This document shows, in pieces, positions 21,451 to 29,651 of a stretch of DNA of 40,951 nucleotides. Position 1 is the first letter of the stretch. Every line of letters begins with the position of its first letter. Source of the DNA: Candidatus Levybacteria bacterium CG_4_9_14_0_2_um_filter_35_21 (GTDB taxonomy: Bacteria; Patescibacteriota; Microgenomatia; Levybacterales; UBA12049). The notes beneath the pieces were generated by a model that worked only from the letters and a program-made list of their open reading frames with translations, had not been told where the DNA came from and searched no databases. Position numbers and translations under genes: made by a program. The stretch spans positions 1 through 40,951 of the forward strand of contig PFRF01000009.1 in the NCBI GenBank assembly GCA_002788395.1. The letters are read 5' to 3'.

Positions 21451-22197
21451 TCAAGGAAGGGATTCGCACGCAAGTCCGTCTTTGTCGGCATCAAGCCTGT
21501 GAGGGTCGCTACCGGGTCCTCCCTGAGAAATAAAGAAAATCTGAGCTTGGGCATGAGTTGCAAAATCCGAACAATCCTTATCCCCTCCGCTGTAAACCGC
21601 AATAGTTTTGACGGGAACTTGATTTATTTTTTGAACAGACGGATTAGTAATAATTATTTGTTTTATAGTTGGCTTGGGAACACTCAAGGGACATGAATTC
21701 CATAGGCCTAAATTATTCTCCCTTGCATATTTTTCAAAGGCATTAAACTTATTTAAAAACTTAGTTGGGTATTGTCTATAACTAAAAGCAAAGCCTTGTT
21801 TTACCATTTCTCCGTTTACAAAAGTTGCCTTACTATCCGGTAAATATACGAAACGGAGAAGTCTTTTATATTTATCTCTGTTTCCTTGCGATGCATCATC
21901 AACAAGTCTTACATATTTTCCTAAAACAAAAAACTTCATTTTATCCGATGCCGCTTTGCCAAAGCATTGAACAGGCTTTTTCGGATCAACTGTTTCGGAA
22001 GTATCAATTCCCAAAAGCCTTACACTCTCATTTTTACCACGAACATTAACCATAATCGTATCTCCATCTGTAACTTTAACTACTCTAAAAAGCTTTTGCT
22101 TATCCATTTCCGTTTCCACATAAGAAAAGGCAGCTTTAGTATTAAAAGCGGATATAAATAATGTAAAAAAGATAACAAGAATAAATAATTTTTTCAT
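21451..22197 (-). CDS. Secreted thermonuclease (SNase-like) with Excalibur domain
   Basis: 248 residues. An N-terminal signal peptide (MKKLFILVIFFTLFISAF) is followed by a staphylococcal-nuclease OB-fold: VVKVTDGDTIMV, VRLLGIDTSET, a DKYKRLLRFVYL strand (arginine-containing) and YARENNLGLW at its end. The C-terminal 45 residues, beginning DKDCSDF and ending DADKDGLACESL, are an Excalibur calcium-binding domain (DxDxDGxxCE). It would be exported and cut DNA or RNA outside the cell, plausibly for nucleotide scavenging, which fits the limited biosynthesis of CPR bacteria (inference). Confidence 0.92.
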   Translation of the reverse strand: MKKLFILVIFFTLFISAFNTKAAFSYVETEMDKQKLFRVVKVTDGDTIMVNVRGKNESVRLLGIDTSETVDPKKPVQCFGKAASDKMKFFVLGKYVRLVDDASQGNRDKYKRLLRFVYLPDSKATFVNGEMVKQGFAFSYRQYPTKFLNKFNAFEKYARENNLGLWNSCPLSVPKPTIKQIIITNPSVQKINQVPVKTIAVYSGGDKDCSDFATHAQAQIFFISQGGPGSDPHRLDADKDGLACESLP

Positions 22198-22239: not shown

Positions 22240-23718
22240 CTAAATTTTTAATAATTGTTTATATATCTCTACCATTGCAAGGGTATCTAATTTACAATAT
22301 TCTTCAAGGTCGTTTAAAATTTGATCTTTAGAACTTTCCCGTTTGCCATCTAAAAATGCTTCCATCCACAATCTTTTTGCAGCATCTCCTTCGTGTATTC
22401 CGAGCTCTTTATAGGAAAGCTCTGTTACCAAAACCGGTAAAACTTTTTTAAGTGATGCACTCCCGCCAAAATCCTTATGAACATACCAGTTGCAGGAAAA
22501 AGGAATCATTAAATCAATAATCCTCTCATTTAACTCTTCGTAAAATTGCTCAAATTCTGGTAAGAGTTTTCCAAGCGATTTATTACAGTTTTTTTCAAAA
22601 CTTTCACTCCAAACTATTACTGATCCTTTCGTACCGATATTTAACTTAATTGATTCACTTAGAGCTTTTGCCGGATTTGAATTCTCCTTATGTAAATACA
22701 TATAATGCTTAATCTCTTCGTCAGGTTTATCCATTACATGCAGTGAATACTGAAACGGAATTTGCTGGTACGGAGTTAAACCGTCAAAATAGGGAATAAC
22801 ACTTGAAAGTGTTTCGTAGTCTAAAAAGTAAAGCGGAAATACTAATTTTTTAATAAACTTTCCTATTTTCTTTTTATCGATAATTTTTCTATTCTGTTTT
22901 GTTGCTAAGATTTGAAGTTTTTGTTTGTCTGTTAATGAAAAAAATCTATCATGGATGTCTATTAGCTTTTTAATTTTAAGGTTTTCCAGCTCTCCGATTT
23001 TGACAGCATTTACCATAAATAAATCGTAAATACTTTCCGGATCAACTGTGGTAAGAGTGCGATAAATATTTAACCATTCCCCAAAAGAATTTCCTTTGGC
23101 AAGAGAAGGTGAAATATCCGGAATTTTAGAAGAAGCAGCAACTTGTAAGGCGTTTTTAATATTAACTTTTGTTTCTTCTTTTCTTGCTTTAACTTTTTCG
23201 GTTATGTCCGAAATGGCTGTTATTTTATTTATATCTATATCTCCGCTACGGACATATTCGCTATTTACATGAATAACGGCAATTTTGTTAATTTTATAAC
23301 CGCATCCCTCAAGAACAACCATCTGAAACGCCAGATCAAATTCATGTTCGGGTTTTACTTTAGTGCTTGATTTTATTTCGTATAAATCAACTATCTTTTC
23401 ACCAACAACTACAATAACGTCACAAATAAATGTAATTTGTCCGTACTCAAAACGTCCCTGAAATATTGTTTTTACACCATCTTTCAACGCCTTTATTGTT
23501 CGCGCAGGAAGATTCAAATATTCATCGTAACCATTAAAACCAATTCGCACTCCGTTTGGGAAAAGTTGCTCTGCATATTTTTCAAACAAATTCCCTTCAT
23601 CAAAAATTGCTTGAAGAGTTTCACTTACCGGAGGTAGTTTATTTTTATCATGCTTTTTAAGCCACAACCATGCAGGGTGCTTGAGGAATAACATGTAGTC
23701 GGATTTTGAGATTTGCAT
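22240..23718 (-). CDS. DUF2779 protein: Cas4/PD-(D/E)XK-like nuclease plus DEDD-type exonuclease-like domain
   Basis: 492 residues. The N-terminal half begins ISKSDYMLFLKHPAWLWLKK (a Cas4-like opening) and has an aspartate strand (CDVIVV) followed by DLYEIKSST, fitting a PD-(D/E)XK active site. The C-terminal half carries FLDYETLSSVIP (first D and E), a later acidic segment and LEEYCKLDTLAMVEIY, matching the last YxxxD motif of DEDDy exonucleases; this is the DUF2779 region. Such two-nuclease proteins are known in bacteria but lack an assigned role. It is divergent from the retron-like locus and shares its intergenic region. A TATAAT at 23744-23739 precedes the ATG by 20 nt. Confidence 0.75.
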   Translation of the reverse strand: MQISKSDYMLFLKHPAWLWLKKHDKNKLPPVSETLQAIFDEGNLFEKYAEQLFPNGVRIGFNGYDEYLNLPARTIKALKDGVKTIFQGRFEYGQITFICDVIVVVGEKIVDLYEIKSSTKVKPEHEFDLAFQMVVLEGCGYKINKIAVIHVNSEYVRSGDIDINKITAISDITEKVKARKEETKVNIKNALQVAASSKIPDISPSLAKGNSFGEWLNIYRTLTTVDPESIYDLFMVNAVKIGELENLKIKKLIDIHDRFFSLTDKQKLQILATKQNRKIIDKKKIGKFIKKLVFPLYFLDYETLSSVIPYFDGLTPYQQIPFQYSLHVMDKPDEEIKHYMYLHKENSNPAKALSESIKLNIGTKGSVIVWSESFEKNCNKSLGKLLPEFEQFYEELNERIIDLMIPFSCNWYVHKDFGGSASLKKVLPVLVTELSYKELGIHEGDAAKRLWMEAFLDGKRESSKDQILNDLEEYCKLDTLAMVEIYKQLLKI

Positions 23719-23761: not shown

Positions 23762-23785
23762 TGACTACCAGTCAATATACTTGAC
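23762..23785. promoter_or_regulatory. Overlapping palindromic operator at the retron promoter
   Basis: TGACT-ACC-AGTCA (23762-23774) is a perfect 5-bp inverted repeat; its right arm, read as GTCAA (23771-23775), pairs again with TTGAC (23781-23785). Thus three half-sites sit in 24 bp and the last is the -35 box itself. This arrangement is typical of repressor operators. The nearest candidate repressor is the XRE-type protein encoded at 24420-24701. Confidence 0.5.
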
Positions 23786-23809
23786 AAAGTAAAATATTTT
23801 ATGTATATT
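23781..23809 (+). promoter_or_regulatory. Near-consensus promoter of the retron-like RNA
   Basis: TTGACA (23781-23786), 17-nt spacer, TATATT (23804-23809). Predicted transcription start near 23816. With the rpoB and tuf promoters it is one of the best sigma70 matches in the window. Confidence 0.7.
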
Positions 23810-23815
23810 AATTAC

Positions 23816-24110
23816 GACAGCTTTGGCTGCAATCTTGTACCTTAACATCACTGAATGTCTATTCTAACCCATCAGTAAAGATTAATTCTTTACTCAATCA
23901 TTTACTGATTGACTTAAGACGTTCTTTTTTGAATGTCGCAAGACGTATTAAAACTACGTTTTGCATTTTCCGGCGCCGGTATTCTTATATCGATAGTTGC
24001 AAGTAAGGTAACAACACTACTTCTTCAAAAGAAATAACTATACTTCGGCACTAGCAAAAAGAATTAAGGTGATCCCATCACTTTTCATAAAGGGGGGACG
24101 AATACGGCAC
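23816..24110 (+). ncRNA. Candidate retron msr-msd RNA (boundaries uncertain)
   Basis: About 345 nt lie between the promoter start and the 66-residue ORF, and they are densely structured. Consecutive hairpins: CAGC/GCTG (23818-23829); AGTAAAG/CTTTACT (23874-23894); CAATCA/TGATTG (23895-23911); GACGTTC/GAATGTC with one GU pair (23918-23937); a 10-bp stem GCAAGACGTA/TACGTTTTGC (23938-23964); the palindrome CCGGCGCCGG (23970-23979); an interrupted stem 23993-24041; and AAGGTGAT/ATCACTTT (24066-24084). Tandem short hairpins then longer stems are the layout of an msr-msd RNA. Possible outer a1/a2 arms are TACCTTAA (23838-23845) with TTAAGGTG (24064-24071). The branching G and msd limits cannot be fixed by eye. 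Confidence 0.5.
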
Positions 24111-24114
24111 TGTA

Positions 24115-24155
24115 GTCTTCTCTACGTCGTAGAAAACTGCAGAGAAAGTAGGTGA
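24115..24155 (+). promoter_or_regulatory. Hairpin and Shine-Dalgarno before the 66-residue ORF
   Basis: TCTAC-GTC-GTAGA (24121-24133) extended by GTAGT/ACTGC (24112-24140), followed by AGGTGA (24150-24155) 6 nt before the ATG at 24162. A clear ribosome site supports translation of the small ORF. Confidence 0.5.
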
Positions 24156-24161
24156 TATATC

Positions 24162-24359
24162 ATGGCAAGATATGCTTTCCAAGAGCTTATTGATAACATC
24201 AATAAGCTTGCAAGGGCAGGAGTGTTGGGATCGGAAGATAAAATCTTCTTCCTAAAATCCATTAAGGATTTGAGACACGCTTTTAGCGTAAACGACTCTC
24301 GAGAAATTGAGAAGTTGGTCAATAAAATCTGTAAGGGTCTTTTGAAGAGTGTGTTTTAA
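24162..24359 (+). CDS. Unknown 66-residue protein of the retron-like locus
   Basis: MARYAFQELIDNINKLARAG start; a compact, probably all-helical, basic protein with a DKIFFLKSIKDLRHAF segment and a C-terminal lysine-rich amphipathic helix ending in hydrophobic residues. No family recognised, no membrane helix and no cysteine. It is the first ORF after the structured RNA, has the best Shine-Dalgarno in the locus and lies 60 nt before the HTH gene. Candidate roles are a small effector (toxin), an RT or msDNA-binding partner, or a second regulator. An antisense ORF over the same bases (24122-24322) lacks a ribosome site and is not favoured. Confidence 0.6.
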   Translation: MARYAFQELIDNINKLARAGVLGSEDKIFFLKSIKDLRHAFSVNDSREIEKLVNKICKGLLKSVF

Positions 24360-24419
24360 TTCTTCAACCTTAATATCTTTTACAAAAACCGAAGGAAACT
24401 TAGATTTTTATAAGAGATT

Positions 24420-26047: not shown

Positions 26048-28774
26048 TTAGTTTTCATCCCCTTCCACAATTTTTATTTCTTCAGAGGTTAGATCATAGA
26101 GTTTGTAAACTTCTTGGTCGATTTTTTTATCTGTTCTTTCAATTTCTTCTTTTATTGAATTCCATTTATTAGAATCTTTTTTGTAAGTTCTAGATTCTTC
26201 ATTCAACTTTAAAATTTTATCAACCAGAGATGATATATTTTTTTGATTATTTGTTTTTTTAATTGGAAGTTGTTCTAAATATGTCTTAGAAATATTAACA
26301 GTTAATTTTGATCTATTAGAAAAATTAATAGAGTAATACCAATTCATTAAAGCTGAATTAATTATCCCCAAAATATATTTAAGACTATATCCTGAATCTT
26401 GATTGAGTATGATGTTATTTACGGAATTAAATGTATAGTATTTATTATTATCAATTGTTGCTGTTAAGGGTTTATCTCCTCCGCTTATCCTTTGCAAAAC
26501 AATTTTCTCAGATAAATAAATCTCTTCTGCTCTTGCTCTGTTTAATTTTTTTCTATCATAATAAATCCATTTGTTGTTATAACTAATATTGTATCTGCTA
26601 AAATTTTTCCCAAATAGAAGTGGTTTGTAGAATTCGTTTGTTTTAGTATCAGAAACATACTTTTCCTTATCTCCGTCGATCCCAGGAGATATATATTGAC
26701 AAATACTACCCAGGAGAAGTGAATTCTCTACAATTTTTTTACTTAATATATTTAAATTAGAACTTGATAATATATTAAATGTAAAACTTGAATTGCTAAG
26801 AAATTGTTCCTGTAAAATTTGCTGTTCAGAAAACTTTCTTTCGTTTAAATCGATAACATTAGATATTATTTTTATGTTATTTAACTTATTTTTAATTTCT
26901 TTTTGCAGAAATAAAATTATCGAAGATGCAGTAACTCCTTGAAAAATACCTTCCCCTAAATCAACAATTTCTAGAATTTTAGTTTTATCTAAAATATATT
27001 TTCTAACTAAATCAAAATTTGTGGCTCTTAAAATATTATTAGGAATTACAAATCCTAATGTTCCCTTATCTTTTAGCAAAGCTGTTGCTTTTAAGATAAA
27101 TAATGAATATAAATTAAGCTTACCCGATTGTATGTTCCTACCTTTTTCTGCTTGAATTAATCCTAATTTTTCTACAAAAAATCCAAAGTATTGTTTTTCT
27201 GAATCAGAGAAATCTCCTTCTTTAGTAAAAACCCATGGAGGATTGCCTACTATTACATCAAATCCCCCTTGCTCAAAAACTTCTGGAAATTTTTCCTTCC
27301 AATTAAATGGATTTTTGTCTCTAAAATTTTTGCCAAAATATTTTTCCATTTCTTCATCTGTTCCAGAAATTAAAGAATTGCCATTTTTAATATTTTTATC
27401 TAGAGAAGGTAACTTTCCTTTTTGTTCTAAGGCATTTATTAAAAGGTTAAGTCTTGCAATTTCTACGGCTTGTTGATCTAGATCAACTCCATAAATGTTC
27501 TCTTGTAGAATCTGAACTTTTGTTAATTCGTCTCCTGCATAGCCAAATTCTTTATATTTATCATTTATAACTTCCATCACTTTTAATAAAAATGAGCCAG
27601 AACCACAAGCTGGATCGAGTACTTTAATCTTTTTTAAATCATTTACGCTTTTACAGTTATCTAGAACAGGTTTTAAAGCATTTTTTACAATGTAGTCGAC
27701 TATAAACGTTGGCGTATAATAAATACCTTGCTCTTTTCTTTTACTCGCAGACTTATCTAAGGTTAATCCTTTTTTTGATTGAGAAAGTTTATATCCGAGA
27801 TAGTTTTCATAAACGCTACCAAGAATATCTGCAGGCATTACGCTAAAATCGTATTCATAATAACCTTGTTTTCCATGTAAAATTTTTATAACTTTTTCTA
27901 ATCCTCCACCATCATCTTCCCAATCCTCAAATGGATGGGGAGTAAATAGGTTTGAATTGTAAATTTCATCTAGCTCCCGAAACTTCTTAGCCATTGACTG
28001 ATATAGTCTTGGCTTATTATTTACAGTTAATGACCTCCATTGATTTAATAAAGGAATTAGGATATTTTGCTCTATCTTTCTGTCCTCAGCCACCCTTATA
28101 AAAATCAACCTATCTAACAATTTTTGCACTCCTTCATCTAGATCGTCTTTAGATCTTTCTGGATTCCATTGCCCTAGATAACTGATTAACAATTTTCTAC
28201 ACTCTTCTAAATCCTTATAGAGTTGTTCTGTTACGGGGACTCTTTGAAGCTTTTTACCAACTCTTTCTGCTTCTTTGTCTATTAGATCTTCCCTCATTGA
28301 CTCTTTAGATAATAGCCATAACTGATCAAAACGGTCTAAATAATCTGGATATTTAATCTCAAAATATAATTTATCACCTAAATATTGGGAGGGAGATTGT
28401 GCATTAAAAACTTTTATTGCCTCAAAATCTGTAAGAACTGCCCAAGTAACACCTCTATTAAAAGAATATCTAATTGCCTGTTTTGCAAAATCTTCCATGT
28501 TTAGATTTGCCTTTAAAGATTTTGCCTCCAAGTAAAATTTAGGTCTATCGTTAATATAAAACCCATAATCTACTCTTCCTGAAGAAATTTCATGTTCTTC
28601 TGCAGAGACTTCTTCTTTTTCTTCAAAATTCCAACCTAAAGCTTTAAACAGAGGTGTTATGAAGGCATTTTTTGTCTCCTCTTCTGTGTAGCTATTAATT
28701 TTTCCAGAAGATTTTACTTGCTCGTACTTAGCAATTAATTTTTTAATCTCTTCCTTGGCTAGTTGTTTATTCAT
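26048..28774 (-). CDS. Single-chain type IIG-like restriction-modification enzyme
   Basis: 908 residues. The N-terminal domain resembles HsdR_N, with VDYGF (D69) and FYLEAKS (E83, K85) forming a PD-(D/E)XK nuclease site. A helical linker precedes YYTPTFIVDYIV and the N6-adenine methyltransferase motif I DPACGSGSFLL (about 387-397), then motif IV GNPPW (about 510-514). The last 350 residues are a TaqI/Eco57I-type target-recognition region. One chain would both methylate and cut its own recognition sequence. BREX PglX proteins share the methylase part but lack this nuclease. A TATAAT (28797-28792) lies 17 nt before the ATG. Confidence 0.85.
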   Translation of the reverse strand: MNKQLAKEEIKKLIAKYEQVKSSGKINSYTEEETKNAFITPLFKALGWNFEEKEEVSAEEHEISSGRVDYGFYINDRPKFYLEAKSLKANLNMEDFAKQAIRYSFNRGVTWAVLTDFEAIKVFNAQSPSQYLGDKLYFEIKYPDYLDRFDQLWLLSKESMREDLIDKEAERVGKKLQRVPVTEQLYKDLEECRKLLISYLGQWNPERSKDDLDEGVQKLLDRLIFIRVAEDRKIEQNILIPLLNQWRSLTVNNKPRLYQSMAKKFRELDEIYNSNLFTPHPFEDWEDDGGGLEKVIKILHGKQGYYEYDFSVMPADILGSVYENYLGYKLSQSKKGLTLDKSASKRKEQGIYYTPTFIVDYIVKNALKPVLDNCKSVNDLKKIKVLDPACGSGSFLLKVMEVINDKYKEFGYAGDELTKVQILQENIYGVDLDQQAVEIARLNLLINALEQKGKLPSLDKNIKNGNSLISGTDEEMEKYFGKNFRDKNPFNWKEKFPEVFEQGGFDVIVGNPPWVFTKEGDFSDSEKQYFGFFVEKLGLIQAEKGRNIQSGKLNLYSLFILKATALLKDKGTLGFVIPNNILRATNFDLVRKYILDKTKILEIVDLGEGIFQGVTASSIILFLQKEIKNKLNNIKIISNVIDLNERKFSEQQILQEQFLSNSSFTFNILSSSNLNILSKKIVENSLLLGSICQYISPGIDGDKEKYVSDTKTNEFYKPLLFGKNFSRYNISYNNKWIYYDRKKLNRARAEEIYLSEKIVLQRISGGDKPLTATIDNNKYYTFNSVNNIILNQDSGYSLKYILGIINSALMNWYYSINFSNRSKLTVNISKTYLEQLPIKKTNNQKNISSLVDKILKLNEESRTYKKDSNKWNSIKEEIERTDKKIDQEVYKLYDLTSEEIKIVEGDEN

Positions 28775-29015: not shown

Positions 29016-29651
29016 TTAAGGGAAAAGAGGGCTTTCTTCAATAATTATCTTCTTAATTAATTTATAATATGAATCATCCCCATGCTCATATTTTCTAAAA
29101 ATAGACCAACTAGCAAAATCTACTGCTTGCAAAGCCTTTTCTTCACTTGGCATTTTTATTTCAATTGTAATTAAGGCTTTATGCTTATTTTTTAATTGAT
29201 TTTCAAGATAATCTTTAAAACCTAAATTCAAAAATTTATTTGTCTCTCTTTTTGCCGCAATTAATATAATTTCTTTATCTTTACCGAGATGTTTTGTCAT
29301 AATTCTGTCTAGGAGTATGTTGGTGACGTAGTTATAAAGAACGTGTTTTTCATCTTGCAGATGCGTATAAACCTTAGATTTATTTAAAAAGATTGTCATA
29401 ATCACTACTTCTTTACCTACTAAAAGTTTTAAAAGTCTTTTTCTTGTAATTGGCTTTTCTTTTACGGCATGCAATACTCCGCCACTTAATTTTTTTACGT
29501 TTTTTCTGAGGTTTTTATGGATTTTTTTAACAATATTTTCTAAAGGTTTTTTATCTGAAGAAAAAAGCACTGTAATTACAAAATATTTTGAATTTTTCTT
29601 TTTAGGATTAAACCCTAAATCTCCAGATTCATCTAAAAATAGATATTTCAT
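29016..29651 (-). CDS. DUF3800 protein
   Basis: 211 residues opening with YLFLDESGDLGF, the hallmark LDESGD motif of DUF3800, a predicted RNase H-like fold. Later acidic residues (a KALQAVDFASW segment with the conserved aspartate) complete the family pattern. DUF3800 proteins are often found near defence and mobile genes, and in one retron type are linked to the RT. Here the gene is on the other strand and 3.3 kb from the RT, so a direct link is not shown. A perfect TATAAT 6 nt before the ATG predicts a leaderless mRNA. Confidence 0.85.
   Translation of the reverse strand: MKYLFLDESGDLGFNPKKKNSKYFVITVLFSSDKKPLENIVKKIHKNLRKNVKKLSGGVLHAVKEKPITRKRLLKLLVGKEVVIMTIFLNKSKVYTHLQDEKHVLYNYVTNILLDRIMTKHLGKDKEIILIAAKRETNKFLNLGFKDYLENQLKNKHKALITIEIKMPSEEKALQAVDFASWSIFRKYEHGDDSYYKLIKKIIIEESPLFP

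Follow-up and report, generated by a model that had tools for sequence, protein, structure and literature searches.

A candidate type VI retron RNA with a covarying fold and a neighbouring nuclease gene in Patescibacteria

Introduction

Retrons consist of a structured non-coding RNA (ncRNA) beside a reverse transcriptase (RT) gene. The RNA is insulated by the inverted repeats a1 and a2, and a conserved branching guanosine adjoining a1 takes part in a 2'-5' linkage (PMC8989520). In type VI, according to a summary of the classification of Mestre et al. 2020, the RT is combined with a DNA-binding protein and a small auxiliary protein (PMC8541194). A literature search on type VI retrons yielded brief mentions only, and the type seems to be little studied.

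Two described groups are closest to the locus presented here. Retron-Eco1 (Ec86, type II-A) has the RT with the best sequence match in the PDB and an a1/a2, msr and msd anatomy (PMC8989520) which the present locus would share, but it differs in effector and ncRNA. Type VI retrons of Shewanella phage MuM16-1, Klebsiella phage ST147-VIM1phi7.1 and the Acinetobacter baumannii plasmid pA388 resemble it in gene order and in their RT_VI and HTH_VI proteins.

Results

Gene order and assignment to type VI

The window, i.e. the whole stretch of DNA analysed (40,951 nucleotides), is one contig of a Candidatus Levybacteria genome of ~0.9 Mb (60 contigs, 96% complete). A stretch of tandem hairpins flagged in it by the first-pass annotation is directly followed, on the same strand, by a 65-aa open reading frame (ORF), a gene for an XRE-type helix-turn-helix (HTH) protein and an RT gene (Table 1). 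For the HTH protein and the RT alike, the top PADLOC models are those of type VI retrons. The RT reaches 254.6 bits with the RT_VI model versus 182.7 bits with the next PADLOC RT model, RT_II-A (2.2e-54), and its best sequence match in the PDB is the RT of retron Ec86 (2.2e-25). Retron RTs have a catalytic DD and the motifs NAxxH and VTG. The RT of the window carries NAKNH and FVDD, and its VTG motif reads TTG (VTG in L002, ITG in L005). An AlphaFold model of the RT was poor (pLDDT 63) and was not used. The protein components of a type VI retron are present, namely a type VI RT, a type VI HTH protein and a small auxiliary protein, the 65-aa ORF being conserved in L002 and L005.

The order small ORF-HTH-RT is common to the window, to three loci from other Patescibacteria and to the proteobacterial type VI loci. 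RT identity to the window is 55% for L002, 46–47% for L005 and 23% for L017. The relatives found in sequence searches, with Candidatus Woesebacteria for L002, point to Patescibacteria. In a further locus (L010 1456-2673, minus strand, genome G268) a single fusion protein of 406 aa carries both the HTH and the RT_VI domain. No relatives of the locus were found in the viral contigs searched.

The neighbours in the window resemble a defence island. They include a type IIG restriction-modification enzyme (26048-28774, REase_MTase_IIG 2e-113), a staphylococcal-nuclease-like protein (21451-22197) and a protein which we take to resemble DUF3800 (29016-29651).

Table 1. Coordinates of features in the window and of nuclease genes beside related retrons.
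Feature	Position	Strand	Evidence or remark
Divergent DUF2779 nuclease-like gene, possible partner	22240..23718	-	Pfam DUF2779 2.4e-39; sole genomic copy
Operator-like palindrome TGACTaccAGTCA, putative HTH site	23762..23774	.	between divergent retron and DUF2779 promoters
Promoter TTGACA-17-TATATT	23781..23809	+	11/12 consensus matches; same layout in L002, L005, L010
Structured leader, candidate retron ncRNA	23816..24161	+	z -4.24; fold common to relatives; start placed from promoter
5' hairpin at predicted RNA start	23818..23829	+	P 0.80; equivalents in L002, L005, L010
Closing-stem 5' arm, best a1 candidate, TGTCTATTC	23856..23864	+	P 0.89-0.97
Hairpin H1, AGTAAAGATTAATTCTTTACT, 8 bp	23874..23894	+	covariation
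Hairpin H2, CAATCATTTACTGATTG, 6 bp, directly abuts H1	23895..23911	+	covariation
Hairpin H3	23918..23937	+	covariation
Hairpin H4, GCAAGACGTATTAAAACTACGTTTTGC, 10 bp	23938..23964	+	covariation
Long hairpin, candidate msd stem	23972..24052	+	outer stems P ~0.9; long hairpin at same position in L002, L005, L017
Hairpin before closing arm	24066..24084	+	P 0.85
Closing-stem 3' arm, best a2 candidate, GAATACGGCA	24100..24109	+	pairs with 23856-23864
Hairpin H6 before small ORF	24110..24142	+	P 0.97; hairpin at same position in L002, L005, L017
Small basic protein, 65 aa, predicted three-helix bundle	24162..24359	+	homologues in L002, L005; codon-position pattern; pLDDT 91
XRE/Cro-type HTH protein HTH_VI, 93 aa	24420..24701	+	PADLOC HTH_VI 6.8e-25; Pfam HTH_3
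Type VI retron RT, 326 aa	24724..25704	+	PADLOC RT_VI 2.5e-76; NAKNH and FVDD; PDB Ec86
DUF2779 genes beside other retrons	L010 3-1514; L017 3-1451		
Cas4-like PD-(D/E)XK genes beside retron	L002 3222-4019; L011 2397-3155; L006 674-1357		~222-264 aa

Fold of the leader

The near-consensus promoter places the start of the RNA near 23816. Folding of 23816-24161 by minimum free energy, which had been proposed as a check, gave -89.5 kcal/mol as compared with -66.9 +/- 5.3 kcal/mol for dinucleotide shuffles (z -4.24), and none of 100 shuffles was as good. The leaders of L002, L005 and L017 have lengths of 343–361 nt, and the z-scores of the four Patescibacteria loci are -4.2 (window), -5.7, -5.4 and -4.5. 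A scan of the whole window with Rfam revealed no family that reaches its gathering score.

H1, H2 and H4 lie exactly where the first-pass annotation had placed them, and its count of at least seven hairpins is borne out by the four tandem hairpins together with the 5' hairpin, the long hairpin, the hairpin before the closing arm and H6. Other pairings proposed there hold in part. Of three mutually exclusive pairings of AGTAAA with TTTACT two are exact, since there is a single AGTAAA (23874) and there are two copies of TTTACT (23889, 23901), whereas the third needs a G-U pair. A bulged stem of GCCGGTATTC with GAATACGGC (23975-23984 with 24100-24108) can form, but it is absent from the best fold. 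There the partner of 24100-24109 is 23856-23864, and 23975-23982 is engaged in closing the long hairpin (P ~0.9).

Conservation and covariation

A covariance model was built from H1–H4 of the window only (94 positions). Its top two matches in 75.7 kb, searched on both strands, are L005 (E 0.005) and L002 (E 0.023, filters off), both at the homologous place and on the homologous strand. MAFFT alignments of leaders and hairpins misplace the arms and were excluded from the covariation analysis. In a three-row alignment of H1–H4 (window, L002 and L005), which was fitted to the window structure and is biased in its favour, 20 of 31 pairs show two-sided compensatory changes, 98.8% of the cells are paired and none of 500 shuffles reaches any of the pairing or compensation values. 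When partners are slid by 1–3 columns, pairing in this alignment falls to 31–41%. The covariation whose absence from homologues, according to the first-pass annotation, would speak against a retron RNA is hence present.

Leader identity among the window, L002 and L005 is only 48–56%, yet the folds resemble each other far more than those of shuffles do. The summed tree-edit distance between the leader folds of the four loci is 1795, versus 2654 +/- 142 for shuffles with a minimum of 2087 in 1000 draws. A three-sequence RNA model has its sole match among 380 Patescibacteria genomes at the locus of the window. The covariance model found no match in the proteobacterial type VI leaders or in L017, L006, L010 and L011; therefore the covariation rests on three sequences, and the RNA either diverges fast or represents a sub-branch. 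Hairpins arising by chance in AT-rich intergenic DNA, a reading with AT-rich composition as its sole support, are refuted by the z-score of -4.2 together with the covariation, and we give them practically no weight.

Candidate a1/a2 arms and msd

A closing stem around the region from H1 to the long hairpin occurs in all four folds; in L002, L005 and L017 it lies at the same place with unrelated sequence. Its two arms in the window are our best candidates for a1 and a2, and the long hairpin is the best candidate for the msd; both assignments are derived from the predicted fold. Shuffling of the 5' arm gave an energy p value of 0.34, i.e. within chance, and the p value for the pair count carries a bias, as the fold itself had served to choose the arms. 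As regards the branching guanosine, each of the four Patescibacteria loci has an AG dinucleotide (CAGT, AAGT, CAGT and TAGC) just 3' of the a1 candidate, either at the base of H1 or next to it; this motif is too short to serve as proof. Different a1/a2 arms had been suggested before, 23838-23845 with either 24064-24071 or 24004-24010. These are complementary in the window but do not pair in the fold, and the match between 23838-23845 and 24064-24071 shrinks in L002 and disappears in L005 and L017, so that both proposals were rejected.

In four enterobacterial type VI leaders (L021, L024, L025 and L042) GGCGA is found both in the loop of the putative msd hairpin and in the hairpin before the small ORF. 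By this repetition, the RT-DNA could complement the latter hairpin.

Alternatively, the template might lie inside a longer helix, formed by 24058-24069 and 24367-24379 on either side of the small ORF. The arms AAAGAATTAAGG and CCTTAATATCTTT have similar complementary counterparts in L002, L005 and L017, TTAAGG/CCTTAA is changed to CTAAGG/CCTTAG in L005, and in the window the duplex beats 300 of 300 shuffles. Against shuffles, however, it is within chance in L002 (p 0.18) and L005 (p 0.26) and weak in L017 (p 0.03), and the ORF inside is under coding constraint of the ordinary kind. The ncRNA would then contain a coding sequence, and we know of no retron with this property. Thus, we regard such an arrangement as very improbable.

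Small ORF and Shine-Dalgarno region

Between the window and L002, codon positions 1, 2 and 3 of the small ORF are identical at 62, 77 and 48%, and because of this pattern we regard the ORF as a real gene. The protein has a pI of 9.5, and a fold search with its model found nothing in the PDB with an E value of 0.001 or lower.

The leader in front of this gene could also be an ordinary structured mRNA leader, similar to those of type I toxins, which hides the Shine-Dalgarno sequence of the 65-aa ORF and does not serve as a template for reverse transcription. In the minimum-free-energy folds of all four Patescibacteria loci a 5' arm (6 to ~37 nt into the RNA) indeed pairs with the Shine-Dalgarno region, and such a pairing also looked convincing in several proteobacterial folds. 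The cost of opening the Shine-Dalgarno region, however, is 3.9 kcal/mol as compared with 3.2 kcal/mol in shuffles, not larger than expected (17 loci, Fisher p 0.26), and the 5' segment shows no more pairing with this region than its own shuffles (Fisher p 0.52). Moreover, if the RNA were a mere mRNA leader, the retron-type RT next to it would have no template. We therefore consider this explanation unlikely. As a conserved feature, Shine-Dalgarno sequestration was rejected; it failed two shuffle tests, and a comparison with downstream genes gave p values of 0.04–0.09.

Operator-like palindrome

The palindrome TGACTaccAGTCA ends six bases before the -35 element of the retron promoter and overlaps a promoter-like match on the opposite strand. 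Throughout the 0.9-Mb genome there is a single exact copy of TGACTNCCAGTCA. In L005, TGACTaagAGaCA is located just before the -35 element, and in the distant relative L017 TGACTgCCAGTCA overlaps the -35 element of the retron promoter. Most of the proteobacterial type VI loci examined contain TTCGCT-N3-AGCGAA or TTCACT-N3-AGTGAA at the equivalent place; no palindrome of the TTCGCT-N3-AGCGAA kind was found there in the P2-like type VI loci of E. coli and Klebsiella (L021, L036). In the simplest interpretation, the palindrome would be bound by the HTH protein.

Linked nuclease gene

A gene for a PD-(D/E)XK-type nuclease, either DUF2779 or Cas4-like (Table 1), adjoins the retron in six of seven Patescibacteria type VI loci. 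The only exception is L005, with no such gene within the flanking DNA compared. Of 380 Patescibacteria genomes, 58 contain DUF2779, almost all of them as a single copy, and in the three genomes found here to have both DUF2779 and an HTH-bearing type VI retron (G000, G268 and G282) the single DUF2779 gene is the one next to the retron. Among 20 DUF2779 loci examined, 19, all from other genomes, have no such RT within ~1.5 kb. Consequently, DUF2779 is not specific for retrons. Its link to the retron may have a functional basis or result from a shared insertion site.

Discussion

The RNA from 23816 to ~24110, with a leader extending to 24161, is very probably the ncRNA of a type VI retron from Patescibacteria and contains an msr-msd candidate. 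The interpretation as an msr-msd candidate, already put forward in the first-pass annotation, is supported by the covariation and by the position of the RNA immediately ahead of a type VI retron operon, the place expected for a retron ncRNA.

We propose the following mechanism. From the predicted promoter, one RNA would be transcribed from ~23816 through the genes for the small protein, the HTH protein and the RT. It would fold into the 5' hairpin, the a1/a2-like closing stem, the msr-like hairpins H1–H4 and the msd-like long hairpin. The RT would bind the folded RNA and reverse-transcribe a portion of it to RT-DNA. The HTH protein, bound to the palindrome, would repress or tune the operon and, in the genome of the window, probably also the divergent DUF2779 gene. 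By analogy with the retron family, the locus would presumably act in defence; the complex of RT, RNA and DNA together with the HTH and small proteins might hold an effector inactive as long as no phage disturbs the complex, and this effector would be either the small protein or the linked nuclease. For the Patescibacteria branch of type VI, a more specific but doubtful idea is that the retron and the linked PD-(D/E)XK/RNase H-like nuclease (DUF2779 or Cas4-like) are under joint control of the HTH protein, and that the effector set free upon disturbance is this nuclease and not the small protein alone.

The covariation-backed RNA fold, the operator-like site and the recurrent nuclease neighbour provide handles on the mechanism of type VI retrons. 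In addition, the locus places retrons in the Patescibacteria, a group of ultra-small and mostly uncultured bacteria, and contributes an RNA outside every Rfam family.

The type VI family itself is known, whereas the RNA, the small helper protein and the linked nuclease gene of this Patescibacteria lineage appear to be undescribed. As in the window, proteobacterial type VI retrons have a leader with two abutting hairpins and, in most of those examined, a palindrome with a 3-nt spacer just upstream of the -35 element. The half-site of the palindrome differs, however, being TGACT in the window and TTCGCT in proteobacteria. Small basic proteins of ~48–55 aa are encoded at the same place in the proteobacterial loci, but without evident similarity to the 65-aa protein. 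In contrast to these systems, the locus of the window is distinguished by four tandem hairpins in a leader whose covariance model does not match theirs, by a small protein with a predicted three-helix fold and by a linked PD-(D/E)XK nuclease gene.
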